From the NCBI RefSeq assembly GCF_963457605.1, contig NZ_OY735139.1:2572001-2636000 (forward strand): a stretch of DNA of 64,000 nt, written 5' to 3'. Below the pieces are notes generated by a model. The model saw only the letters and a list, made by a program, of their open reading frames with translations. It did no database searches and was not told the DNA's origin. This document shows positions 13,274-61,561 of the stretch, in pieces. Each line of letters begins with the position of its first letter. Positions within the stretch are counted from its first letter, which is position 1. The position numbers and the translations under genes are program-made. Source of the DNA: an uncultured Gellertiella sp. (GTDB taxonomy: Bacteria; Pseudomonadota; Alphaproteobacteria; Rhizobiales; Rhizobiaceae).

Positions 13274-14356
13274 CTATCCAAGTCGGGCGAGATGCTGGTC
13301 CCAGTTCACGGCGCTCTGTGTGCCGAGAAGCTGGCCCTCGTAGCTGGAAACGGCAAAGCCGCGCCGATCCGGGGCGATGCCGGCTGCATCCCGGATCCAG
13401 CTTTCGTCGAGCACCCGACCCGAGGTGGCGTCGATGGTGACGGCATAGCCGAGCTTCGGCGAGGCAAGCCCGACCGTGTGGTCCCGGCGGTTACAGGCGA
13501 TGGCCCCGACATAATTGGCAAGCCGGGCGGTGACCGTCTCCGGCAGGGACAGGAAGGTGAGGTCTTCCCCCTTTGCAAAGGAGCCGACCAGCGGCGGATT
13601 GTCGGTGCGCGCCCCCTCGTACTGGCAGGCAAACCACACCCTGCCCCTGTCATCGACATCCACATGGCGTGTCGACAATTGCCGCAGCGCTGCGGGCAGG
13701 TCATGCCGCTCGATCAGGCTTCCCGTCGCCGCATCCAGCAGCACCAGCGACGGCTGCATATGGTCGAGGTTGAGCTTGGTGCGGCCAAAATCCGGATGGG
13801 TCTCGATGCCGCCATTGGCAATCACCAGCATGCGCCCGTCATCGGAGACGGAAATGTCATGGGTGCCGATGCCGTGATTGTCGAATTCGCCGATCCGGCG
13901 GAAGCCGGCCCCGGCATCATAGATCCCCGTCATGCCGCGATTGGCGGAAAAATCGTTTTCGCTGGCATAGAGAAACCGGCCGTCCGGCGAAAAGCAGCCA
14001 TGGCCGAAGAAATGCCGGTCTTGCCCGGCGCTGACCACGACGGGCTCGCCGCCACCTTTCGGATCGGTCACCATCAGGAAGGTGCCGGGCCTGCGGGCAA
14101 AGGCGGCCACCCGGCCTGTCGCCCGGCAATGGGTGACGCCATGGGCACGCGATGGCAGCAGCGAGCGGGAAATGATCTCGCCGCGCTCGCTGATCAGCGC
14201 AAGGCCAAAACTGCCATCTTCGGCACGGAAGGCCGAGGCATAGACGGCATCGGCTTGTTCCAGCGCAAACAGCTGACGGGGTGCGAGGCCCGCCAGAAAG
14301 GCGATGCCTGCCGCCTTGACCAGGCAGCGGCGGTCGACAAGCGGCCCCTGTGCCAT
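13274..14356 (-). CDS. DUF1513 protein with Tat-like signal, iron operon
   Basis: 360 residues from ATG 14356. The N-terminus DRRCLVKAAGIAFLAGLAP looks like a twin-arginine type export signal (D-R-R-x-L). The mature part reads as a beta-propeller-like repeat protein: GHGCFSPDGRFLYASEND, GTHDISVSDDGRMLVIANGG, STRHVDVDDRGRVWFACQ, typical of DUF1513. It is the last gene of a four-gene unit (imelysin, di-haem oxidoreductase, imelysin, DUF1513), one base after the preceding stop. Family members are found in just this arrangement in iron-responsive operons, but their biochemical role is unknown; periplasmic location is expected. Confidence 0.85.
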   Translation of the reverse strand: MAQGPLVDRRCLVKAAGIAFLAGLAPRQLFALEQADAVYASAFRAEDGSFGLALISERGEIISRSLLPSRAHGVTHCRATGRVAAFARRPGTFLMVTDPKGGGEPVVVSAGQDRHFFGHGCFSPDGRFLYASENDFSANRGMTGIYDAGAGFRRIGEFDNHGIGTHDISVSDDGRMLVIANGGIETHPDFGRTKLNLDHMQPSLVLLDAATGSLIERHDLPAALRQLSTRHVDVDDRGRVWFACQYEGARTDNPPLVGSFAKGEDLTFLSLPETVTARLANYVGAIACNRRDHTVGLASPKLGYAVTIDATSGRVLDESWIRDAAGIAPDRRGFAVSSYEGQLLGTQSAVNWDQHLARLG

Positions 14357-14357
14357 G

Positions 14358-15449
14358 TCAGTCTCCGTCCGAGAAGGAGAAGCCGGCCCCGAGCCCGAGC
14401 GCCTTGCCGTAATCATCGCCGAGACGAACGATCAGGTCCTTGCTGTTCAGCATCAGGAAATCCACCTTGGCCCGTTCGGTCTTGTCGGTGATCGACCGTT
14501 CGATGTCGGGCGTCACGGTCGGGGCCATGCGAACGAGCGATTTCAGCACGAAGCCGATGGAGCTTGCAATCGAGCGCTGGTCGTCCTTCAGCAGGATTTC
14601 CATATGGGCCTTCTTCCAGAGCGTCGAGAGACCTTCGAGATTGGCCGTCATCAACGTCCAGGTCTTGCCCGAGCGCCAGAAGGGCGCTGCCTTCGGGTTG
14701 GACTTGCTGTCGGTGACGGGGAAAAAGCCCTTCAGCCTTTGCTCGCGCACCATTTCGGCGCCATGCACCATGGTGCCGAGCAATTCGGTGACGGCCTCTT
14801 TTTCGTCGCGGAATGCCGGGTTTTGCGGTCCCGGCTTCTTCCAGCGGTCGCCGATGCCATCGGGCGCGTCCCAGGCACTGGCAAGCTCGCCCGCAATGGT
14901 GTGGAGATTGCCGGAAATGGCCGCCCCGTAGCGGCAGCGGTGGCCGTTCTTTTCGCTCGCCAGCACCTCGTTACCGGTGCCATAGAGCACGAATTCCAGC
15001 GCCCCCAGCCCTTGCACGCCGACGCTCTTGCCGGCCAGCGTGCCGGCATTGGTGGCGGTCTCGTCCCGGGTGGCGAGGATCGCCTGGATCTGCTTCAGGC
15101 CGATGCTCTTGCGGTCGGGATAATAGAGCACCCGCTCGAAACGGTTCATCTCCAGCGCCGGGCCGGAGCGGATGATTTCGATGGCCCCCCAGGCTTTGAG
15201 CGTCTCGTCAAAAGCCGCCCGGGCCTTTTCTTCGCCCGCGGGCGAGGGGGCGGCGCAAAGCGCGCTCATGGCGTCGCCGAGCTGGACGGTCCTGTCGAGA
15301 AAGCGGTGGTAGCCGGGCCGGATCACCTCATCGACCACATGGCCCAGAACCGTCTCGGTCCTGTCGACTTTTGCGGGTGCATCCGTGGCGAAGGCGGGTC
15401 CCGCCAGCGCGAGGAGGCCGAGCGAGGCAAGCAGGGGGATATGGCGCAT
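14358..15449 (-). CDS. Imelysin-family periplasmic protein (second copy of the operon)
   Basis: 363 residues with an N-terminal signal peptide (LLASLGLLALAGPAFA). Imelysin-like all-helical protein: LKAWGAIEIIRSGP, RVLYYPDRKSIG, and VQGLGALEFVLYG, which occupies the place of the family's GxHxxE motif but has Gly where His is usual. Its ATG shares one base with the stop of the di-haem oxidoreductase gene (TGATG), so the two are coupled. Imelysins are thought to take part in iron uptake rather than peptidolysis. The divergent motif suggests that the two imelysins of the operon do different jobs. Confidence 0.85.
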   Translation of the reverse strand: MRHIPLLASLGLLALAGPAFATDAPAKVDRTETVLGHVVDEVIRPGYHRFLDRTVQLGDAMSALCAAPSPAGEEKARAAFDETLKAWGAIEIIRSGPALEMNRFERVLYYPDRKSIGLKQIQAILATRDETATNAGTLAGKSVGVQGLGALEFVLYGTGNEVLASEKNGHRCRYGAAISGNLHTIAGELASAWDAPDGIGDRWKKPGPQNPAFRDEKEAVTELLGTMVHGAEMVREQRLKGFFPVTDSKSNPKAAPFWRSGKTWTLMTANLEGLSTLWKKAHMEILLKDDQRSIASSIGFVLKSLVRMAPTVTPDIERSITDKTERAKVDFLMLNSKDLIVRLGDDYGKALGLGAGFSFSDGD

Positions 15450-52016: not shown

Positions 52017-52475
52017 TCACACGTCCGGCATGAGCCTTGCGAGCAGGCGGGACAGCGTTGCGGCTTCTTCGTCGCTGAGAAGGGTGCCGAGATGGTTTTG
52101 CAGGGAGGGGCCATAGACGCTCCAGGCCTGAAGGCGCAGGGATGCGCCCTTGTCGGTCAGTTCCACCCAGCGCCCGCGCCCGTCCTCCTCGTAAGCCCGC
52201 CGGGTCAGCAATTGCTTTTGTTCCATCCGGTCGAGGAGACGGGAGAGGTTGTACTGGCTGAGCAGGATGCGCTGCTCGATTTCATAGGGGCGCAACCGTC
52301 CTCCCTCTGCGCGCGACAGTTCCAGCAGCACGTCATACCAGCCGAGCGGCGGCAGGCCGGCGGCCTTGAGGTCCGTCTCCACCGCCGCCAGCAGATGCTT
52401 TTGTGCCCGCATCAGCCGGACCCATGCTTCGGTGACGGCGGGGGAGGGCAGGGTCTGTTCCGAAATTGCACTCAT
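52017..52475 (-). CDS. MarR-family regulator
   Basis: 152 residues from ATG 52475. Winged HTH: GWYDVLLELSRAEGGRLRPYEIEQRILLSQYNLSRLLDRMEQKQLLTRRAYEEDGRGRWVELTDKG, the normal MarR layout with the wing at RGRW. ATG 52475 is preferred to 52520 because a direct-repeat operator lies at 52479-52490, right before it. Divergent from a GST gene; the pair probably responds to an electrophile or drug. Confidence 0.88.
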   Translation of the reverse strand: MSAISEQTLPSPAVTEAWVRLMRAQKHLLAAVETDLKAAGLPPLGWYDVLLELSRAEGGRLRPYEIEQRILLSQYNLSRLLDRMEQKQLLTRRAYEEDGRGRWVELTDKGASLRLQAWSVYGPSLQNHLGTLLSDEEAATLSRLLARLMPDV

Positions 52476-52478
52476 AGA

Positions 52479-52543
52479 TGCATTTACATCCACCTTGACA
52501 GCGGAAGCAAGCCTTTCCATATAAATGCAGTTGCATCTACATC
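52479..52543. promoter_or_regulatory. Direct-repeat operator in the marR/GST gap
   Basis: TGCATTTACATC at 52479-52490 and TGCATCTACATC at 52532-52543 differ in one base and are 53 bp apart, five turns of DNA. They flank the divergent promoters, so the MarR protein may bind both. Confidence 0.65.
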
Positions 52544-52560
52544 AACGGAAGGATCAAGCC

Positions 52561-53256
52561 ATGACAAGCCCGGCACTGACACTGGTCAGCCATCACCTCT
52601 GCCCCTATGTGCAGCGCGCTGCCATCGCGCTTGCCGAAAAGGGCGTGGCCTTCGAACGCCGAATGATCGATCTCGCCAACAAGCCGGACTGGTTTCTGGC
52701 GATCTCGCCGCTCGGCAAGGTGCCGCTGCTCCTGGTTCGCCGCCCTGACGGCAAGGAAGAGGTGCTGTTTGAAAGTGCGGCCATCGTCGAATATCTCGAA
52801 GAGACAGAGAAGGGTCCGACCCTCCATCCCGCGGATGCGCTGACCCGCGCCCGCCATCGCGGCTGGATGGAGTTCGGCTCCAGCCTGCTCGGCGATATCT
52901 GGGGCTACGAGACAACGCAGGATGCGTCCGTGTTCGAGGCCAAACGCCAGGCCATTCGCGGCAAGTTTGCGCAGGTTGAAAAGGCGCTTTCGGCGGGCCC
53001 CTATTTTGCCGGAAGCCAGTTCACGCTGGTGGACGCGGTCTTCGCGCCGATCTTCCGCTATTTCGAAACCTTCGACCGGATCGCCGATACCGGAATCTTT
53101 GCCGGCATGCCGAAGCTTGCCTGCTGGCGGCAGGCGCTTCAGGCCCGGCCCTCGGTCATCGCAGCCGTGGGGGCGGATTATCCCGAGCGGCTGCGTGCCT
53201 TTCTCGAAAGACACGACGCCTATCTGTTGACGCTTGCTGAAGACAAGGTCGTCTGA
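52561..53256 (+). CDS. Glutathione S-transferase family protein
   Basis: 231 residues from ATG 52561 (GGAAGGATCAAGCC upstream). N-terminal thioredoxin-like domain with LVSHHLCPYVQRAAIALAEK (CPYVQ motif of omega-like GSTs, with a cysteine) and SPLGKVPLLLV with the cis-Pro; ESAAIVEYLEE binds glutathione. C-terminal helical domain: GSQFTLVDAVFAPIFRYF. Divergent from marR. The cysteine suggests thiol-transferase or dehydroascorbate-type activity; substrate unknown. Confidence 0.9.
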   Translation: MTSPALTLVSHHLCPYVQRAAIALAEKGVAFERRMIDLANKPDWFLAISPLGKVPLLLVRRPDGKEEVLFESAAIVEYLEETEKGPTLHPADALTRARHRGWMEFGSSLLGDIWGYETTQDASVFEAKRQAIRGKFAQVEKALSAGPYFAGSQFTLVDAVFAPIFRYFETFDRIADTGIFAGMPKLACWRQALQARPSVIAAVGADYPERLRAFLERHDAYLLTLAEDKVV

Positions 53257-53315: not shown

Positions 53316-54977
53316 TTAACCCAGCCGGATATGCGGAATATGCTTCTTCTCGACCTCGTCGAGTGCCTCCGCATAGCCCGCATCCGCATAGCGCATGACG
53401 CCGAGCGAGGTGTCGTTGGTCATCGCGCGGTCTAGCCGTTCATCGGCTTCCGGCGTGCCATCGGCAATGACCGTGACGCCGCAACTGGTCATGTAGCCGG
53501 AGTAGCCGCCGCCGCCGGAATGGACGACGACCAGGTCAGCCATCGAGGAACACAGCATCATCGCATCGATCAGCGGCCAGTCGGCAATCGCGTCCGATCC
53601 ATCCTTCATGCCCTCGGTCATGATATTCGGATGGGCCATGGCACCCGCATCGAGATGGTCGCGCGAAAAGGCGATGGGACCCTTGAGTTCGCCTGCGGCC
53701 ACCAGCAGATTGACGCGCCGGGCGAGATCGGTGCGCTCGCCATGGCCAAGCCAGGCGATGCGGGCGGGAAGGCCTTCGAAGGGGATATGGGCGCGGGCAA
53801 GCCGGATCCAGTTGGTGACGATCCGGTTCTCCGGGAACATTTCGAGGAGCAGGTCGTCGATCCGGGCGATATCGCTGTCCTCGCCCGACAGCGCCATCCA
53901 GCGATAGGGACCGATGGCGCGGCAGAACAGCGGCCTCAGATAGGCCTCGGTGAAGATCGGAATGTCAAAGGCATTGTCGACGCCGCCTTCGCGGGCCTGG
54001 GTGCGGATCAGGTTGCCATTGTCGAACACCTCGGCACCCGCCTTCTGGAAGGCGAGCATGGCCTTGACCTGTTCGACAATCGAGGCGCGGCTTTCGGCCA
54101 TCAGCTGTCCGGGCGCATCGACCCGCATCTGCCGCACCTCCGCGAGTGTCCGGCCACGCGGCACATAGCCATAGACGAGATCATGGGCGGAGGTCTGGTC
54201 GGTGACGATATCGGGTGTAATGCCGCGCGCGACAATTTCCGGATAGAGATCGGCGGCGTTGCCGGTGAGACCGACCGAGATCGGCTTTCGGTCCCTGACC
54301 GCCTCGTCGATCAGCGCCAGCGCCTGGTCGAGACTGTCGGCGATCACTTCGAGATAGCCGATTTCCTTGCGCTTGGCGGCGCGTTCCGGGTCGACATCAA
54401 CGCACAGGATCGCCGCCTCCGCCATCCGCCCGGCCAGCGGCTGCGCGCCCCCCATGCCGCCGAGGCCGGCGGTGAGGATGAAGCGGCCTCGCAGGGACCC
54501 GCCGAAACGCTTTTCGGCGATCCGCATGAAGATTTCATAGGTGCCCTGGATGACGCCCTGGCTGCCGATATATTGCCAGGCCCCGGCGGTGAGCCCGCCC
54601 CAGCAGATCAGGCCCTTTTTCTGCAGGTCGTAGAACACTTCGGCCTTCGCCCATTGGCCGACAAGGTTGCAATTGGCCATGATCACCAGTGGCGCCTTGG
54701 CATGGGTGCGGATGAGACCGACCGGCTTGCCGGACTGGATCAGCAAAGTCTGGTCCACCTCCATCTCGCTGAGCGCCCTGACGATGGCCTGATGCGCCTG
54801 CCAGTTGCGTGCCGCCTTGCCGAGTGCGGCATAAACGATCAGGTTGTCCGGGTCCTCGCCAACCGACAGGACATTTTCGAGCAGCCGCAGCAGGGCCTCC
54901 TGCCGCCAGCCCCGGGCACGCAGCACCGGGCCGCCTGGGACGGGGAAATTGGCATGGCGCGAGGGGCGGCTGTTCAT
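53316..54977 (-). CDS. Urocanate hydratase homologue, probably thiourocanate hydratase
   Basis: 553 residues, full length for the family. NAD-binding loop GLGGMGGAQP (171-180), TAGAWQYIGSQGVIQGTYE and TSCGVTVIADGTPEAD are HutU signatures, so it adds water across urocanate-like imidazole acrylates with NAD+ as electrophile. No hutI or hutG lies next to it; instead it closes a five-gene run with a MIO-less HAL-like lyase, an amidohydrolase, an M20 hydrolase and a DUF917 protein, so the likely substrate is thiourocanate, from ergothioneine. Overlaps the DUF917 gene by four bases (ATGA at 54974-54977). Confidence 0.88.
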   Translation of the reverse strand: MNSRPSRHANFPVPGGPVLRARGWRQEALLRLLENVLSVGEDPDNLIVYAALGKAARNWQAHQAIVRALSEMEVDQTLLIQSGKPVGLIRTHAKAPLVIMANCNLVGQWAKAEVFYDLQKKGLICWGGLTAGAWQYIGSQGVIQGTYEIFMRIAEKRFGGSLRGRFILTAGLGGMGGAQPLAGRMAEAAILCVDVDPERAAKRKEIGYLEVIADSLDQALALIDEAVRDRKPISVGLTGNAADLYPEIVARGITPDIVTDQTSAHDLVYGYVPRGRTLAEVRQMRVDAPGQLMAESRASIVEQVKAMLAFQKAGAEVFDNGNLIRTQAREGGVDNAFDIPIFTEAYLRPLFCRAIGPYRWMALSGEDSDIARIDDLLLEMFPENRIVTNWIRLARAHIPFEGLPARIAWLGHGERTDLARRVNLLVAAGELKGPIAFSRDHLDAGAMAHPNIMTEGMKDGSDAIADWPLIDAMMLCSSMADLVVVHSGGGGYSGYMTSCGVTVIADGTPEADERLDRAMTNDTSLGVMRYADAGYAEALDEVEKKHIPHIRLG

Positions 54978-56086
54978 GGGTTTGAACCTTTCGGGGTGGG
55001 GCCAAGCGCGTAACGGGCAATGTCGATTCCCATCGCCTTTTCGACGGCGGGATAGACGGCAGGATCAAGCACGCTTGAGGCGAGCGGAATGATCTCCATC
55101 GGCACATGCAGGACATGGACGCGCATGCCCTCGCGCAACTGGCCGACGCTCAGGGCTTCGCCCTCTTCGCTGAGCGTGGTGATCACCGAGGGGAAGGTGG
55201 CGAGCCGGACACCATCGGCATCCCCGACCGCCATATACTCGTTCATCACATGCAGCACGCGGGCAGCCGCGCCGGAGCCGATGGTGACGGTGCCGATATC
55301 GAAGGCTTCCTTCGTATAGGTTACCTTCTTGGTGGTGATGATCCCTTCGGTGAGGATATGGCCACCGGTGACGGTGCAGATCGCATCGATCACGGCGGCA
55401 ACGCCCTTTCGTTCGGCGGCAATGATCGCCTCGCCGAGCGCCAGCGCCATCGAGATGCCACCAAGGGCGGCATTTTTCTTCACATAGGATGCACGCAGCG
55501 GATTGCGCGCAGAGGCGATGAAGCCGCCGGACTGGTCGGATGCAGCGCGGAGAATGGGCGAGACCTTTGCGGTCGCGCCGCGCACGGTGAGTTCGATATA
55601 GCGGTTCTCGTCGCGATTGCCGCCTGCCGCCGTCTGGATCATCGGTTCGGGCGATCCCGCCATGCCGATGGACCCCATGTCGCCGGTCGGATGGGCCCTG
55701 ATGTCGCCGACCGCATCGACCACCCTGGTGCCGAGAATGGCCGAGGGCAGCCAGGCGTTCAGCGTCGAGGATTTGCCGTTCTGGCCGACGATCAGGCCGG
55801 CGATCCGTTCGCCGAGCGCCTCCTGCAACAGGCTGACAGCGCGGACATAGTCAACCCCGCGCATTTCCCAGGGGGTGGTGGAGGCAGGCGCGCCGATGGC
55901 GGCAGCGGTTGCCACCCAGTCATCGGGATCAAGTTCGTCGATGCCGACGAGTTCCGGCTTGCCGATCGACACGGCGGCATGGCCAAGCATCCGCCCGTGA
56001 TCGGCCCAGCCGCCCCCGCCCGCCGCATAGACGGAACCGCCCTTGACGGCGGCCTCCACGTCCCGTTCAACCAGTATCCGTCCCAT
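54974..56086 (-). CDS. DUF917 (S-methyl thiohydantoin desulfurase-like) protein
   Basis: 370 residues from ATG 56086. DUF917 signature features GGSVYAAGGGGWADHGRML, NGKSSTLNAWLPSAI, AHPTGDMGSIGMAG and SDQSGGFIASARNP. Related proteins sit in hydantoinase and thiohydantoin clusters, and a DUF917-like enzyme removes sulfur from the thiohydantoin formed in ergothioneine degradation (to give hydantoin-5-propionate). This gene lies between the M20 hydrolase (one base gap) and the urocanate hydratase homologue. The enzymatic role is inferred from family and context. Confidence 0.8.
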   Translation of the reverse strand: MGRILVERDVEAAVKGGSVYAAGGGGWADHGRMLGHAAVSIGKPELVGIDELDPDDWVATAAAIGAPASTTPWEMRGVDYVRAVSLLQEALGERIAGLIVGQNGKSSTLNAWLPSAILGTRVVDAVGDIRAHPTGDMGSIGMAGSPEPMIQTAAGGNRDENRYIELTVRGATAKVSPILRAASDQSGGFIASARNPLRASYVKKNAALGGISMALALGEAIIAAERKGVAAVIDAICTVTGGHILTEGIITTKKVTYTKEAFDIGTVTIGSGAAARVLHVMNEYMAVGDADGVRLATFPSVITTLSEEGEALSVGQLREGMRVHVLHVPMEIIPLASSVLDPAVYPAVEKAMGIDIARYALGPTPKGSNP

Positions 56087-56087
56087 C

Positions 56088-57347
56088 TCAGCCCTCTCTC
56101 CCAATCTGTCTGTCGAGCGCAATCACCGCCTCGAACAGCACTTCCGTGCCGAGCGCGATGGCGTCATTTTCCGCCCATTCCTCCGGCGCATGGCTGAGGC
56201 CATCGCGGCAGGCGACGAAGATCATCGCCGCTGGAGCCTTGCGGGCAATCCACGCGGCATCGTGGCCCGCACCCGAGGCCATGTTGCGGTGGCTGGCTCC
56301 AAGCCGGGTGCAGGCATCGCCGAGGATGGCAAGCAGGCCCGCATCGGAGGGAACCGGCGGATTATCGGAAACCACCATTGGCGGCGCGACCGCAACGCCC
56401 TCGATCCCGTCCATCCGCCTTGCCTCGGCTGACACCCAGCGCAGGAATGTTTCCATGTCCGGCCGGTGTTCGGCGCGGGCATCGATCAGCAGCCGCACCC
56501 GAGCGGGCACCACATTGGCGGCATTCGGCTCCATCCTGAATTCGCCGACTGTCGCGGTGAAATGGCCGGGTTGCCCGCTCAGCACCATCGCCGCCTCGCG
56601 AAGGGCAATGACGAAGCGGGAGGCAGCGACCAGCGCATCGGCGCGCGCGCCCATCGGCGTGGTGCCGGCATGTCCGGGGCTGCCGTCGAAAGTAAGCTCG
56701 ATCCGGGTGATCCCCGAGATCGCGGTAACAATGCCGATATCGGTCTTCGATGTCTGGAGCACCGGGCCCTGCTCGATATGCAACTCAAGGAAGCCGGCAA
56801 TTTCGGGCATGGCAAGAGCGGCAATCGCTTCCGGCTCGCCGCCGACTTCGGCAATCGCCTGCGCAAGCGTGCGGCCTTCCGCGGTTCGCGACAGCCAGCT
56901 GTCCGGAAACTGGGCGGTGAGGCCCCGGCTGCCGATGCAGGAAACGCCGAAGGCGGAGACTTCCTCGGCGAGAAAATCGGCAACCAGCAGATCACGGTCG
57001 AGGGCAATTCCCCGATCCGACAGGGCGCGCGCAACCTCAAGCGCGGCGATCACGCCTGCAATCCCGTCGAAGCGGCCGCCATCGGGGACGGTATCGGAAT
57101 GCGAGCCGAGCATGATGGCACCGTGCCCCGGTTTCTGTCCCTTGCGGAGTCCCAGCAGATTGCCTGCGGCATCGATCCGGGTTTCAAGGCCCGCGTCCCG
57201 CATTGCCTGGTCAAGCCAGGCCCGGCCTTCGAGGAAAAGTGGCGTGAAGGAGCGGCGCGTCCAGGGGCGGCCGGGTTCGGTAATAGTGCCGAGGGCTGCG
57301 ATATCGCGCCCGATGCGCGCGGCATCGACGGAAAGATTGCGGGTCAT
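56088..57347 (-). CDS. M20-family Zn hydrolase, N-carbamoyl amino acid type
   Basis: 419 residues. Two-domain M20/allantoate amidohydrolase-like enzyme: MLGSHSDTVPDGGRFDGIAG (metal His/Asp pair), FLAEEVSAFGVSCIGSRG (catalytic Glu-Glu), ELHIEQGPVL (metal His), GSPGHAGTTPMGARADAL (dimerisation/substrate region) and ASGAGHDAAW (metal His). These enzymes hydrolyse N-carbamoyl groups. In this cluster, N-carbamoyl-L-glutamate to glutamate is the expected step. It lies five bases after the amidohydrolase stop and one base before DUF917. Confidence 0.88.
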   Translation of the reverse strand: MTRNLSVDAARIGRDIAALGTITEPGRPWTRRSFTPLFLEGRAWLDQAMRDAGLETRIDAAGNLLGLRKGQKPGHGAIMLGSHSDTVPDGGRFDGIAGVIAALEVARALSDRGIALDRDLLVADFLAEEVSAFGVSCIGSRGLTAQFPDSWLSRTAEGRTLAQAIAEVGGEPEAIAALAMPEIAGFLELHIEQGPVLQTSKTDIGIVTAISGITRIELTFDGSPGHAGTTPMGARADALVAASRFVIALREAAMVLSGQPGHFTATVGEFRMEPNAANVVPARVRLLIDARAEHRPDMETFLRWVSAEARRMDGIEGVAVAPPMVVSDNPPVPSDAGLLAILGDACTRLGASHRNMASGAGHDAAWIARKAPAAMIFVACRDGLSHAPEEWAENDAIALGTEVLFEAVIALDRQIGREG

Positions 57348-57352
57348 GGCGG

Positions 57353-58729
57353 TCAGGCTTTCCGGCTTGAGAGATCGGCGGGCGGGCGAACAAACTGGCC
57401 GGTGCCCGGCGCTGCCACCACCCGGCTGCCATCATAGGCAAGCTTGCCGCGCAGCCAGGTGGCGGCGACCCGGTAGGGCAGGCGGATCCCGTCATAGGGG
57501 CTCCAGCCCACCACCGTATGGCCACTGTCGGCGGCACGGTAGATGTACTCGTCCGGCGCAAGTACGGTGATATCGGCGTCGCGGCCCGGTTTCAGGGCAC
57601 CCTTGCGGTGATCGAGCCGGAAATGTTTCGCCGGATTCTCGGCCATCAGCTTCGCCGCCCATGTCAGCGGTACATTGCGCTCCAGCGCACCCTTGACGAA
57701 GAGCGGGATCATCACCTCAAGGCCGGGGACACCCGAGGCATTGGCCAGCATGTCGGGATTGGTCTTGCGGTTTTCGGACCAGGCCACGTGGTCGGTCGAA
57801 ACCAGCCAGACCAGCCCGCCGCGCACCTGTTCCCAGAGCGCTTCGACCTCGCCACGCGGACGGACCGGCGGGTTGATCTTGGCCCTGCCGCCAAGGCGAG
57901 CCACGTCATGCTCCTCATCGAGCGTCAGGTAGTGGATGCAGCATTCGACCGTTGCCTCGAAACCATCGAGCCTGTAGGCGGACGCGATGTCATAGCCGCG
58001 CGCCAGCGAGCAATGCACGACATGCGCGGCGCATCCGGTTTGCGCGCCCGTTTCGAAGATGGTGTGCATGGCCAGCAATTCGGCGAGCGGCGGGCGGGAC
58101 AGGCCGTGGGCGCGCCAATCGGTAATTCCCGAATGACGAACCCGCTCCATGTAAATCCGCACCGACTCGTCATCCTCGTTGTGGACACCTGCGGTCAGGC
58201 CGGTCCTGGCAATCTCGGCAAAGCAGTCGGCCAGGAGCGGCGGGGTGATGCGGGGAAAGCGCTTCGGATCGGTGCCGAAGGTCGAAAACTTGAAGGCGGC
58301 GACCCCGGCTTCGGCCATTTCGGCAATCCGCACCGGGCCTTCGTTGGGATCAATGGTGCCGTAAAGGGCGAAATCGACCCTTGCCTGCGGGCTGGCATGG
58401 GCGATCTTGCTGCGCACCGCTTCCGCCGAACACACAAGGTTTCCCTCATCATAGGGCATGTCGACGATGGTGGTGACGCCGCCTGCCGCGGCCGCATTGG
58501 TCGACCAGATGAAATCCTCCTGATCCTTCTGCGACAGCGAATGCACCTGGGCGTCGATGGCTCCCGGCAGGATCAGTGCCTCGCCGAGATCGTGGCGCTC
58601 GCGGGCCGCTGGACCGATGCCGTCGCCGACCCTTGCAATCAGCCCGTCACGCACCGCAACATAGCCTTCCTCGATGATGCGGTCGGGGAGGATGACCTTA
58701 CCGGCAAGGACGAGATCGAAATCGGACAT
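57353..58729 (-). CDS. Amidohydrolase (dihydroorotase/hydantoinase type), likely hydantoin-5-propionate amidohydrolase
   Basis: 458 residues. TIM-barrel metal hydrolase. Motifs: ALILPGAIDAQVHS, in which the usual D-x-H-x-H is D-A-Q-V-H (first His replaced by Gln), GTFGTDPKR-like AFKFSTFGTDP with the Lys of the family, GVHNEDDE, AHVVHCSL and WLVSTDHVAW (Asp near the end). The modified metal site is shared by a subfamily that acts on cyclic amides. Context (carbamoylase M20, DUF917, urocanate hydratase-like) points to opening hydantoin-5-propionate to N-carbamoylglutamate. Confidence 0.85.
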   Translation of the reverse strand: MSDFDLVLAGKVILPDRIIEEGYVAVRDGLIARVGDGIGPAARERHDLGEALILPGAIDAQVHSLSQKDQEDFIWSTNAAAAGGVTTIVDMPYDEGNLVCSAEAVRSKIAHASPQARVDFALYGTIDPNEGPVRIAEMAEAGVAAFKFSTFGTDPKRFPRITPPLLADCFAEIARTGLTAGVHNEDDESVRIYMERVRHSGITDWRAHGLSRPPLAELLAMHTIFETGAQTGCAAHVVHCSLARGYDIASAYRLDGFEATVECCIHYLTLDEEHDVARLGGRAKINPPVRPRGEVEALWEQVRGGLVWLVSTDHVAWSENRKTNPDMLANASGVPGLEVMIPLFVKGALERNVPLTWAAKLMAENPAKHFRLDHRKGALKPGRDADITVLAPDEYIYRAADSGHTVVGWSPYDGIRLPYRVAATWLRGKLAYDGSRVVAAPGTGQFVRPPADLSSRKA

Positions 58730-58740
58730 GGCTTTCTCCC

Positions 58741-60312
58741 TCAGGCGACGTTCTTGCGGGCATCGGGCCGGGCAGGCGGCCCAAGCGCAAAGAAGTCATC
58801 GACGGCAGGTAGCGGTGAGCGGTCGGTGAGGATGCCCATGAAGGCATCGGAGGCAAGATCGAGTTCGATGGCCTCGATTTCGCAGGAGAGTGGCCGGTCG
58901 ACGGTCAGGAAGCGGGCATGCTTGCGCACGGCCTTGTAGACCTCGGCTGCCGTTCCCTCCGGCTGCATGCCCATGATGTCGAGTGCCTGCGCCGCGAGCA
59001 TCGCCTCGATGGCGGCAAGCCGCTTCAGCGCCTCCATCTGCCGGTCGAAACGGTCGATGACCAAAGGCAGGAAAGCTGCCTCGTCTTCAAGCCCGCCTGC
59101 CACCACCAGCGACTGGGCAGAGACCGGGTTGCACATTGACAGGACGCGCGAAAAGATTTCCCCTGCCAGCTTGATCATCGGGCCGAAGCCGGTGGCAATC
59201 GCCCCCTTCGGCACCAGATTGACGGGCAGGCCGGGGCGCACGCCATTGCCGAGCAGCACGCAGCGGTTGAAGGCATTGCGGGCGGCATGCGCCATGCAGA
59301 GCGCGGAGGATTCGAGCAGCAGCGTCACGTCAAGCGGCAACGAGCCGCCGGAGGTCAGCACCCTGCCATCGGCAATGACGGGATTGTCGTCGGAGCGGCC
59401 GGTGGCAGAGACGATGCGGAAGCCTGCCGCCATCAGGCTTTCGAATACCGCCCCGAACACCTGGGCGATCATCCGCACGCTCAACGGGTCCTGGATATGG
59501 GTGGTGACGTCCCAGTTCCATGGTTCTGCGGTCTGCAGCAGCCAGGCACCGGTCTGGGCCTCGCGCGGCGTTCCGACGGCGGTCACCGCCTGCCAGGGAT
59601 CGCGGGAGGCACCGAGCGCGCCGCAGGCCAAAAGTCCGGTGGCCAGCAGAACCCGGATTGATCCGGTGGCATTGCGCAGCGTTTCGGCCGCATTGGCAAA
59701 GCTGACGGCATTGACGCTGAGCGAGGCGAGGCTGTCACGCGGCGCCATGGCCAGCGGTTTCAGCCCGGCGGCGGCCAGCGCCTCGGCTGCATCCATGCGC
59801 CGGCCCCTGTAGACGGCTTCGCCTGCCCCCGTCAGCACCGCGCCGATCTGGCCCATGAGCCCGATATCGGCGCAGCCGATGGACCCCGTGCGGCGCACGA
59901 CCGGAATGACATCCCGTTCGAGCAGGGCAAGGAAGGCTTCGACCAGCGCCGGCGTGCAGCCGGTGTGGCCGGTCAGCGCGGTGTTGATGCGGATCGCCAT
60001 GGCGTTGCGGACAATGGAGGCAGGGAAAGCGGCACCGGTGCCGAAATGGTGGGCCCGGACCAGCCCCAGACTGAAGGTGTTGATCTCCTCGGCGGACCAC
60101 TCGACATCCTTCATCGCGCCGACACCTGTCGTTGCGCCATAGACCGGCTCGCCGCGCGCCAGCGCCTCGTCGAGCACGCGCCGCGCTGCTTCCACCCGGG
60201 CCATCCCTTCGGCGGATGCAAGGACACGCATCCTGCCCGCCCCGATCTCGGCAAGCCTTGCAAAGCCGATCGGCTGTCCGGAAAGTTCGATTGCGTCCGT
60301 TGAATGTTTCAT
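58741..60312 (-). CDS. HAL/PAL-family lyase lacking the MIO triad, probable ergothionase
   Basis: 523 residues from ATG 60312. General HAL/PAL fold: YGATTGVGAMKDVEWS (58-73) with the conserved tyrosine region, VRNAMAIRINTALTGHTG, GFGPMIKLAGEIFSRV and CNPVSAQS (Gln region). At the MIO position, where histidine lyases have GSVGASGDL, it reads GSIGCADIG (143-151), so Ala-Ser-Gly is Cys-Ala-Asp and the cofactor cannot form. Characterised ergothionases, which split trimethylamine from ergothioneine, are described as HAL homologues that work without MIO. It is the first gene of a five-gene run. Longer frames upstream are not supported. Confidence 0.82.
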   Translation of the reverse strand: MKHSTDAIELSGQPIGFARLAEIGAGRMRVLASAEGMARVEAARRVLDEALARGEPVYGATTGVGAMKDVEWSAEEINTFSLGLVRAHHFGTGAAFPASIVRNAMAIRINTALTGHTGCTPALVEAFLALLERDVIPVVRRTGSIGCADIGLMGQIGAVLTGAGEAVYRGRRMDAAEALAAAGLKPLAMAPRDSLASLSVNAVSFANAAETLRNATGSIRVLLATGLLACGALGASRDPWQAVTAVGTPREAQTGAWLLQTAEPWNWDVTTHIQDPLSVRMIAQVFGAVFESLMAAGFRIVSATGRSDDNPVIADGRVLTSGGSLPLDVTLLLESSALCMAHAARNAFNRCVLLGNGVRPGLPVNLVPKGAIATGFGPMIKLAGEIFSRVLSMCNPVSAQSLVVAGGLEDEAAFLPLVIDRFDRQMEALKRLAAIEAMLAAQALDIMGMQPEGTAAEVYKAVRKHARFLTVDRPLSCEIEAIELDLASDAFMGILTDRSPLPAVDDFFALGPPARPDARKNVA

Positions 60313-60403
60313 GCGTGCCCCTGCCTGTTGAAAGCAGTCTATTGGACTTTCGAGAAATATGGGATATCCCAAAACATGAACGGATGATGCGGGAAGACCA
60401 GCG
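60313..60403. promoter_or_regulatory. Divergent promoter region with palindrome (LysR target candidate)
   Basis: 91-bp gap between the lyase gene and the divergent regulator. TGGGATATCCCA at 60360-60371 is a perfect 12-base palindrome with further A/T flanks, of the kind LysR proteins bind next to a divergent start. The regulator's own start follows 32 bp later. Confidence 0.6.
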
Positions 60404-61561
60404 ATGGATACAGCCACGATCGTGATTGTCGAACGGCTGCTGGCGATTGGCGGTCTTCGGGAAACCGCGCGCCAGCTCGGCCGGCCTGCGGCAAGCATCG
60501 CGCTGGCGCTCAGCCGGATGCAGGGCGCGCTTGCGGTCGATCTGCTGCAGGTCTCCGGAGGTGCGATGCTGCGCACGCTCGATGGCGAAAGGCTTTTCCC
60601 GCTGCTTTGCGATCTCGCGTCGGAAGTCTCGGGTCTTTTCGGTTTGCCGCCCGGCCATCCCGTGCCGTCGCTCCGCCTCGATGCATTGCACCGGCTGCTG
60701 ACGGTGGCGCGCAAGGGCAGCATCCGGGCAGCCGCCCGGGAACTCGGCATCGGTCAGCCGCAACTGACGCGGCAACTCGCCCATGCGGAAGACAAGATCG
60801 GCAGCCGCCTGCTCACGCGTCTGCATGACGGTGCCGTACCGACGGAACGGGGGCTGGAGGTGATCAGGGCGGCCCGCAGCATTGAAGACCTGTGGCGGGA
60901 CATGGCGGCCCGCTCGGGTGAAAAATTCCGGCGGCAGGCGACCACCGTCCGGGTGGGATCGATTTTCCCGCTCGGGGCGGAAAGCAGCGTTGCGGGCCTG
61001 CTTGCCGGGCTTGCGGCGCGCTGGCGGCTCCACCATCCCCGCCAGCCGCTGTTCATCACCTCGATGATCGCCGAGGAACTGCTGAACGGCATAAGGCGCG
61101 GGCTGTTCGACATGGTGCTGCTTGACCTTGCCGAACTTCCCGCCGACCTCGACGGCGTCGAACTCTCGCGATCAGTGCTGGTGCTGGTTGCCTCGCGGGA
61201 AACGGCCGAGCGGGCAGGGGGAACGCTCGACAGCATTCTGCTGACATCGCCGCTCGCGGTGCCGAGTGCGCGCAGCGGCTTGCGCCAGATCATCGATGGC
61301 GTGCTGGAAACCGGGCCGTTCCTGGCCTGGCGCGGCAGGCAGGAGGCGGTGGACGTGGATTCGATCCCCGTCATCCTGCGGCTGGTCGCCGATCACGGTT
61401 TCGTCTCGTTCCTGCCCGCGGCCTCGCTGCCGGGCGAGGGGCGATTTGCCGCCCTGCCGCTGCCCGTTCCCGTCACGCTGCCGCTCTATGCGGCCTGGCC
61501 AAGGGGCAAGGGCGACCATGGCCTGGTCGCCCAGGTCGTGGCACTGGCAAAAGGAAAGTAA
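60404..61561 (+). CDS. LysR-family regulator with two tandem winged-helix domains
   Basis: 385 residues, against about 300 for ordinary LysR proteins. Residues 6-66 (RLLAIGGLRETARQLGRPAA, SIALALSRMQGALAVDLLQV) already resemble a LysR HTH, and residues 93-155 (DALHRLLTVARKGSIRAAAR, QLTRQLAHAEDKIGSRLLTR) are a second, more typical one. The effector domain begins near 175 (VRVGSIFPLGAESSVAGLLA). It is divergent from the ergothioneine-type operon and probably regulates it. Start ATG 60404. Confidence 0.88.
   Translation: MDTATIVIVERLLAIGGLRETARQLGRPAASIALALSRMQGALAVDLLQVSGGAMLRTLDGERLFPLLCDLASEVSGLFGLPPGHPVPSLRLDALHRLLTVARKGSIRAAARELGIGQPQLTRQLAHAEDKIGSRLLTRLHDGAVPTERGLEVIRAARSIEDLWRDMAARSGEKFRRQATTVRVGSIFPLGAESSVAGLLAGLAARWRLHHPRQPLFITSMIAEELLNGIRRGLFDMVLLDLAELPADLDGVELSRSVLVLVASRETAERAGGTLDSILLTSPLAVPSARSGLRQIIDGVLETGPFLAWRGRQEAVDVDSIPVILRLVADHGFVSFLPAASLPGEGRFAALPLPVPVTLPLYAAWPRGKGDHGLVAQVVALAKGK

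Follow-up and report, generated by a model that had tools for sequence, protein, structure and literature searches.

Known ergothioneine catabolism and the Gellertiella locus

Ergothioneine is an antioxidant made by fungi and some bacteria and taken up by plants and animals. Five-step bacterial ergothioneine catabolism was reportedly reconstituted by Beliaeva, Leisinger and Seebeck (2021, ACS Chem Biol 16:397), and later steps of ergothioneine utilisation are said to be known from Burkholderia sp. HME13. The present analysis concerns a 64,000-nucleotide stretch of the genome of an uncultured Gellertiella sp. of the family Rhizobiaceae (the window, G000:C2:2572001-2636000, where G000 is the own genome), in which five adjacent genes, here called ert, very probably form an ergothioneine-degradation operon, as judged from their sequences. 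PMC13405746 describes ergothionase as an enzyme without the 4-methylideneimidazole-5-one (MIO) cofactor that is known in few genera and is made in Burkholderia when ergothioneine is the only source of nitrogen. An ergothioneine importer belonging to the quaternary-amine class is described in PMC9732360, which also has the title of a five-step reconstitution of 2021 among its references. No primary paper on the five Ert enzymes was found in the open-licence literature, as judged from titles and the beginnings of abstracts, and this absence is weak evidence because the search covered open-licence papers only.

The closest precedent beside HME13 is the reconstituted five-step pathway of 2021. The operon resembles this pathway, and the NCBIfam models for Ert proteins, in having one enzyme for each of five families with the same inferred steps and products, but differs in that the lyase matches no ergothionase model and in that genes for trimethylamine oxidation coexist in the genome. 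The likeness to HME13 is one of description, i.e., an ergothionase reported with ergothioneine as sole nitrogen source (PMC13405746). The pathway itself is not new, since NCBIfam models exist and its reconstitution is cited from 2021, and the window contains a well-supported new member. New here are a LysR-type regulator with two winged-helix modules that is associated with the operon in the order, and a transporter that other families keep inside the operon and that was not found in four genomes of this genus. The conserved operator predicted from the alignments, consisting of TGGGATATCCCA and a right arm, is likewise new. A specialist would not expect the two-module regulator, its predicted operator and the split of the regulon discussed below; trimethylamine oxidation encoded in the same genome is a new point beside the known pathway.

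Gene organization

The genes and the region between the divergent transcripts are listed below, with all feature positions in window numbering. The names ErtD and ErtE are taken from NCBIfam; ErtA to ErtC are named by analogy.

58741..60312, minus strand: ErtA, predicted ergothionase (ergothioneine trimethylamine-lyase), 523 amino acids, ATG start; histidine ammonia-lyase (HAL) fold with the MIO loop replaced (GCADIG)
57353..58729, minus strand: ErtD, hydantoin-5-propionate amidohydrolase, 458 amino acids; NF058538, 773 bits (cut-off 600)
56088..57347, minus strand: ErtE, N-carbamyl-L-glutamate amidohydrolase of the M20 family, 419 amino acids; NF058540, 576 bits (cut-off 520)
54974..56122, minus strand: ErtC, thiohydantoin desulfurase (old DUF917), 382 amino acids, TTG start; NF058529, 578 bits (cut-off 440)
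53316..54977, minus strand: ErtB, thiourocanate hydratase, 553 amino acids, ATG start; NF058530, 1036 bits (cut-off 930)
60404..61561, plus strand: divergent LysR-type regulator (ErtR, a convenience name only), 385 amino acids, two winged-helix modules
60313..60403, no strand: divergent promoter region of 91 bp between ErtA and the LysR gene, compared by alignment with that of five relatives, including two near-identical ones

The five open reading frames lie on the minus strand between 53316 and 60312, in the order ErtA-ErtD-ErtE-ErtC-ErtB from 60312 downward, with zero internal stops. The gap is 11 bp between ErtD and ErtA and 5 bp between ErtE and ErtD, and ErtB and ErtC overlap by 4 bp. 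ErtC and ErtE overlap by 35 bp if the TTG at 56122 is the start of ErtC, and are 1 bp apart if the alternative ATG at 56086 is used. The start of ErtA is the ATG at 60312; a longer mechanical frame to 60750 would overlap the LysR gene. A preliminary description of this DNA had reported five tightly packed co-directional genes, without hutI, hutG or hutF among them and faced by a divergent LysR gene. Its coordinates and gaps agree with the frames found here, none of the three hut genes is present inside the operon, and the LysR gene (60404-61561, plus strand) begins 91 bp from ErtA. The clustering is more than chance, because the five genes occur together in the own genome, in 7/7 relatives read and in 73 of the 80 loci fetched with the lyase.

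Proposed pathway and enzyme assignments

In the proposed pathway ErtA would cleave ergothioneine to thiourocanate and trimethylamine without an MIO cofactor, and ErtB would hydrate thiourocanate to a thiohydantoin-type propionate. ErtC would take the sulfur off as sulfide, yielding hydantoin-5-propionate, the ring of which may be opened by ErtD to give N-carbamyl-L-glutamate, and ErtE would convert the latter to L-glutamate, CO2 and NH3. The cell would thereby gain usable nitrogen, carbon and sulfur. We infer all enzyme activities, the inducer and its sign, and the use of ergothioneine for growth as a nitrogen and sulfur source; what the sequence analysis shows is the gene content, the families of the proteins, the conservation of both cluster and operator, and the predicted tandem fold of the regulator. 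One family per step had been proposed earlier, and the known five-step pathway is matched by the predicted families, by the order of the steps and by the products. The conversion of ergothioneine to trimethylamine, sulfide and glutamate is supported by the equivalogs for four of the five enzymes and by the likeness of the lyase to ergothionase; the earlier product list was incomplete, as CO2 and NH3 are also products of the pathway.

ErtA passes no NCBIfam model and no ergothionase model matched; on the hutH equivalog it scores 219, below the cut-off of 539. Both by sequence and by predicted fold, its best solved relative is the ergothionase of Treponema denticola (PDB entries 6s7j and 6s7q). 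The lack of Ala-Ser-Gly pointed out earlier extends over the whole ErtA sequence, with GCADIG in place of the MIO loop. In the loop alignment, GASGDLAP of HAL corresponds to GCADIGLM in ErtA and to GEGDITTL in the T. denticola enzyme, so that both ErtA and the latter are without the MIO tripeptide and have a loop one residue shorter than that of HAL. The two also share a Lys-Asp pair after an N-terminal Gly-Val-Gly, but they are only 22-27% identical in structural alignments and differ in the loop itself (GEGDIT versus GCADIG). Of 109 loop segments that were aligned, 94 share the motif R[R/K]TGSIGC[A/G]DIGLMGQI and the remaining 15 comprise variants, loops of the HAL type and truncated pieces; Lys68-Asp69 is kept in 101 of the 107 segments that cover this position, many of the segments being overlapping copies of the same loci and hence not independent. 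The remaining six of the 107 belong to HAL-type or diverged lyases and include one Arg-Asp variant (L129). Speaking against the assignment, the AlphaFold2 (AF2) model of ErtA, built from 10 sequences, has a low predicted local distance difference test score (pLDDT) in loop 58-70, and for this reason no active-site geometry is claimed.

Two further lyases were observed. At about 1.05 Mb of G000:C2 (L036:7586-9097) the own genome encodes a HAL-like lyase that scores 449 and 440 against histidine ammonia-lyase cut-offs of 524 and 539, and that has no Ala-Ser-Gly in the loop according to a pairwise alignment. Plasmid 1 of Polaromonas sp. JS666, typed as conjugative, carries an ergothionase-like lyase (L137:11980-13599) with 33% identity, a GAADIT loop and Asn-Lys-Asp; no other ert gene is present within the 25.6 kb read.

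The other four enzymes, ErtB, ErtC, ErtD and ErtE, are each above the NCBIfam equivalog cut-off for their step in the ergothioneine pathway. For ErtE, the generic Zn-hydrolase equivalog NF009531 gives a higher score (663, cut-off 486) than the ErtE model itself. Pfam yields broad families only for the enzymes, the sole hint being the name S-Me-THD for DUF917.

That the genes form a diverged histidine-utilization (hut) operon has a negligible probability. Such an operon would account for the HAL-like and urocanase-like folds and for the score of ErtB on the hutU model TIGR01228 (688, cut-off 375), but this model is broad and does not discriminate, as it also accepts PDB entry 7ned (702). Moreover, the MIO tripeptide is absent from ErtA, hutI, hutG and hutF are absent from the operon, the thiourocanate hydratase and desulfurase equivalogs are passed, and hut genes are present elsewhere in the genome, each above its own cut-off. 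These are hutI (449, cut-off 298), hutG (373, cut-off 279) and hutU (967, cut-off 375), on the same contig about 84 kb from the operon (L022), and hutH (687, cut-off 539) at a separate place (L035). The idea that absent hut genes mark a hut fragment was dropped for the same reason.

On the thiourocanate hydratase model, 7ned scores 1022 and the HutU of the own genome 687, above and below the cut-off of 930, respectively. In a tree of 33 rows, the window protein, 16 relatives and 7ned form one clade with support 100/99; outside it fall 1x87 and 13 HutU-type rows from the same order, the own HutU among them. The clustering with ordinary hut enzymes that the preliminary description had named as evidence to the contrary is thus not seen for ErtB, and the lyase is likewise nearest to ergothionase. 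Entry 7ned, which we take to be the thiourocanate hydratase of Paenibacillus, shares the clade and the equivalog with ErtB but has a generic deposit name, urocanate hydratase.

An operon acting on a close analogue (S-methyl-ergothioneine, ergothioneine sulfonate or hercynine) is improbable. In its favour, NCBIfam has separate models for S-methyl counterparts of ErtB and ErtC, and ergothionase also accepts ergothioneine sulfonic acid. A sulfonate pathway is cited by title in PMC13405746. However, ErtB scores 735 on the S-methyl thiourocanate hydratase model NF058531 (cut-off 880) and ErtC 272 on the S-methyl thiohydantoin desulfurase model NF058532 (cut-off 450), so both are below cut-off here and above it on the plain thio models. 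PDB entry 8q9u, presumably an S-methyl enzyme although listed as urocanate hydratase, has a long branch of its own and does not belong to the ErtB clade, and the desulfurase would be superfluous for hercynine.

Ergothioneine supply and trimethylamine oxidation

No match for egtD was found in the genome, the other (EanB-type) synthesis route not having been sought, so that ergothioneine is probably scavenged. It counts against this reading that the same search gave only one match in 14 control genomes, and that one below cut-off. A cluster for trimethylamine was found on the same contig:

L143, G000:C2:2013000-2030000 (about 2.02 Mb): trimethylamine cluster, assigned by cut-off scores

It encodes a trimethylamine monooxygenase (835, cut-off 675), a trimethylamine N-oxide (TMAO) demethylase (1257, cut-off 1100), a DmmA-family subunit (109, cut-off 60), a HODM protein (233, cut-off 25), a TMAO permease (828, cut-off 690) and a type III glutamine synthetase-like enzyme (668, cut-off 470). 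Since monooxygenase, demethylase, DmmA-family and permease genes are present, trimethylamine from ErtA is plausibly usable by this cell, and it would probably be oxidized further by this Tmm-Tdm-Dmm set.

Distribution and gene order

A scan for the lyase in one genome per species (84,980 species of GTDB) gave 256 stretches with an ErtA relative, and the locus counts refer to the best 80 of these 256. Judged by their titles, all 80 belong to Hyphomicrobiales, mostly to Rhizobium. The five genes are clustered in 73 loci, in 72 of them behind ubiB: 68 show the order ubiE-ubiB-ErtA-D-E-C-B without LysR, four have all five genes with ubiE, ubiB and LysR, and one contains all five but no ubi gene in the stretch read. 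ErtA stands alone beside ubiB in six loci, and one short stretch shows only ErtA and ErtD. The notion that the operon is complete everywhere was rejected, as 7/80 loci show fewer than five of the genes in the stretch read. In the six genomes with a solitary ErtA, ErtC is found above cut-off elsewhere in four and in pieces in one, and is absent in one. Among 61 genomes comprising the own genome and near relatives, thiourocanate hydratase is above cut-off in eight, the own included; the five genes are together in 8/8 and the LysR gene is beside them in 7/8. A plasmid-borne operon is found in Rhizobium sp. SL42 (750-kb plasmid unnamed1, L136:12049-20389), with all five genes and a LysR gene of the tandem type on the opposite strand between ErtA and ErtD (13533-14822), at a place where the gene table is blank.

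The amount of ergothioneine left in soil is decided by the organisms that destroy it. The predominance of Rhizobium makes root-associated bacteria likely consumers; Rhizobium johnstonii 3841 (L049) is one of the strains with the operon that are easy to handle in the laboratory.

Regulator and gene order were compared within Hyphomicrobiales, in an even sample of 249 genomes of which 13 have ErtC above cut-off. In seven of these 13, an OsmF-type quaternary-amine transporter is located between ErtA and ErtD, a position inside sister operons that fits a betaine substrate; in the two Rhizobium-type genomes of the sample it accompanies a tandem LysR gene at another place. The OsmF-type binding protein matches EgtUC chains (E 5e-28) and also the OsmF equivalog. 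With the binding protein of L028 as query, no homologue was found in G000 and three congeners, other binding-protein families not having been sought; over all nine genomes searched, six gave no homologue and three matched. The sister operons contain a transporter of the same class as the EgtU and other OsmF/OpuC-type importers, unlike the window operon.

A LysR-type regulator with two predicted winged-helix modules

LysR-type regulators usually contain a single N-terminal winged helix. In the protein encoded opposite ErtA, Pfam likewise finds one helix-turn-helix (HTH) domain, HTH_1 at residues 92-150 (59 bits, cut-off 27), followed by LysR_substrate at residues 191-382 (72 bits, cut-off 28), yet residues 1-80 resemble the HTH part, and the protein departs from the usual architecture. 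Two modules can be delineated:

60404..60637, plus strand: extra N-terminal winged-helix and linker-helix module, residues 1-78 (AF2, PDB profile matches)
60671..60919, plus strand: canonical LysR winged helix and linker helix, residues 90-172 (Pfam, AF2, profile)

In the AF2 model, module 1 consists of helices 3-15, 18-25 and 29-43, strands 48-51 and 54-57, and helix 59-78, and module 2 of helices 92-104, 107-114 and 118-132, strands 137-140 and 143-146, and helix 148-172. Both have the same order of elements with nearly equal lengths, and pLDDT is mostly around 90 (per-block values of 83-95 in module 1, except 65 at residues 51-60). A profile of seven orthologs matches LysR HTHs of the PDB twice, at positions 5-74 (E 1e-5 to 2e-4) and again from 91 onward. 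The two HTH parts align in the same register in all seven orthologs, with a score that is reached by 0 to 9 of 500 shuffles. Profile and Foldseek searches match the canonical winged helix, together with the region that follows it, to LysR-type regulators such as CbnR and CcmR, from which the window regulator differs by a second winged helix and linker helix at the N-terminus. Some points weaken this picture: the modules of the window protein align worse than those of the other six orthologs (9/500 shuffles, with a 3-residue gap), and the AF2 model, computed from five sequences, has a mean pLDDT of 71, with low values at residues 174-256 and 360-385 and a poorly modelled effector domain. No report of a tandem-HTH LysR protein was found in the open-licence literature, where absence is weak evidence, and tandem HTHs are not mentioned in the passages of PMC5882156 on LysR. 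Nor was any on-topic paper linking ergothioneine with LysR found in that literature, as judged from the listed entries alone.

Most likely, this tandem winged-helix variant of LysR controls the operon from the TGGGATATCCCA operator described below and responds to ergothioneine or thiourocanate. In the 249-genome sample tandem LysR proteins were called by eye among the matches listed, from a start at model position 21 or lower (three pieces were joined for G245). On this basis they are present in 11/13 genomes with ErtC versus 3/236 others, and beside ErtC in nine of the 13; the Fisher p of 6e-15 ignores kinship, which tells against taking it at face value. It is unlikely that the LysR gene is a chance neighbour that controls something else, with the palindrome belonging to another regulator. 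The 68/80 Rhizobium-type loci with an operon and no adjacent LysR would fit such a neighbour, as would the three sample genomes that have tandem LysR without ErtC and the two with the reverse (among the matches listed), and the link between LysR and operator is a predicted one. Besides the association itself, however, the three exceptions adjoin ErtD and/or a lyase with a short loop and Lys-Asp (ErtD and a lyase in G085 and G122, an ErtA-like lyase in G154), the Rhizobium operon, which has no LysR gene nearby, is preceded by the same site, and the remote LysR-OsmF locus of Rhizobium by a related one.

The loci of these exceptions were read individually. In G085 (L121:9601-13745) and G122 (L122:9411-16908) the tandem LysR gene is accompanied by an operator-like site, by ErtD (771 and 777, cut-off 600) and by a lyase of the HAL fold that shares 27-28% identity with ErtA and has Lys-Asp as well as a short loop reading GASDIVAM. 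No ErtB or ErtC is present within the 19 kb read, and L122 adds a UbiD-like decarboxylase and an M20 hydrolase; these variant clusters possibly represent a sister pathway through a hydantoin. In G154 (L125:9726-12608) the lyase beside the tandem LysR gene is ErtA-like, with 37% identity and a GCADIGLM loop, and the 19 kb read contain no further ert gene. Tandem LysR genes also stand beside ErtC-ErtB in L128 and ErtD-ErtC-ErtB in L130, together with genes for other ABC transporters (glutamine/cystine-like and urea-like, below cut-offs); neither ErtA nor ErtE is present within the 19 kb read.

Predicted operator

The divergent promoter region contains two conserved elements:

60357..60388, no strand: predicted operator, palindrome TGGGATATCCCA (60360-60371) with right arm TGAAC..ATG, recognized by conservation
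60336..60346, no strand: left conserved element AGTCTATTGGA, core AG[A/T]CTA, which may form the other half of an extended LysR site, from the six-sequence alignment

All six aligned sequences contain TGGGATATCCCA with at most one changed base, AG[A/T]CTA on the left and an arm like TG[A/T]AC..ATG on the right. The site at 60360-60371 is the only one in the window with at most one mismatch. With the same tolerance, the palindrome is found in the gap before ErtA in 76 of 79 loci with ubiB (45 exact, 31 with one mismatch), mostly close Rhizobium relatives and hence not independent, and nowhere in 1.66 Mb elsewhere in the same loci. A leave-group-out weight matrix locates a site in 20 of 21 loci, each time with a higher score than any of 300 random stretches from that locus. 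Loci L121, L122, L123, L124 and L125 pass as well although none of them had served as a seed, L125 doing so weakly.

Three points temper the prediction. A palindrome count of 2 is reached in 11/100 shuffles, so that within the window the palindrome by itself does not reach significance and its conservation is the evidence; L128 has no operator recognizable by the weight matrix; and the seeds of the matrix were picked by their core match, so that the test, while fair as regards position, is not a blind one for the motif. A second good operator was not found in the own genome, where the other 16 matches all have 3 mismatches, compared with 6 matches for the reversed control pattern.

In Rhizobium-type genomes, tandem LysR and OsmF-type transporter genes lie away from the ert operon (L123:5444-10896 and L124:9389-14775) with a related operator, GGGATATCTTTT..GAACACA. 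This looks like one regulon split in two. A broader proposal is about as likely as not. In it the divergent protein founds a subclass of LysR regulators specialized in sensing ergothioneine or thiourocanate, each subunit having two winged-helix modules and the usual tetramer as many as eight. Its members would read an extended site composed of AGTCTATTGGA, about 13 bp, TGGGATATCCCAAAA and TGAAC..ATG, with a core that has hardly changed during the divergence of the protein to about 40% identity. The Rhizobium regulator would have moved away in company with a betaine importer and a related site, splitting the regulon across the genome, and in Gellertiella the pathway would be joined to trimethylamine oxidation, making all three ergothioneine nitrogens usable. 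The tandem regulator and its operator make the pathway switch directly approachable, and could serve as a sensor for ergothioneine or thiourocanate.

Genes downstream of ErtB

Between ErtB and a kinase-like gene, at 52017-53256 of the window, are a MarR-type and a glutathione-transferase-like gene (named by eye). The kinase gene comes immediately after ErtB in three congeners, so that this pair looks inserted here or lost there.

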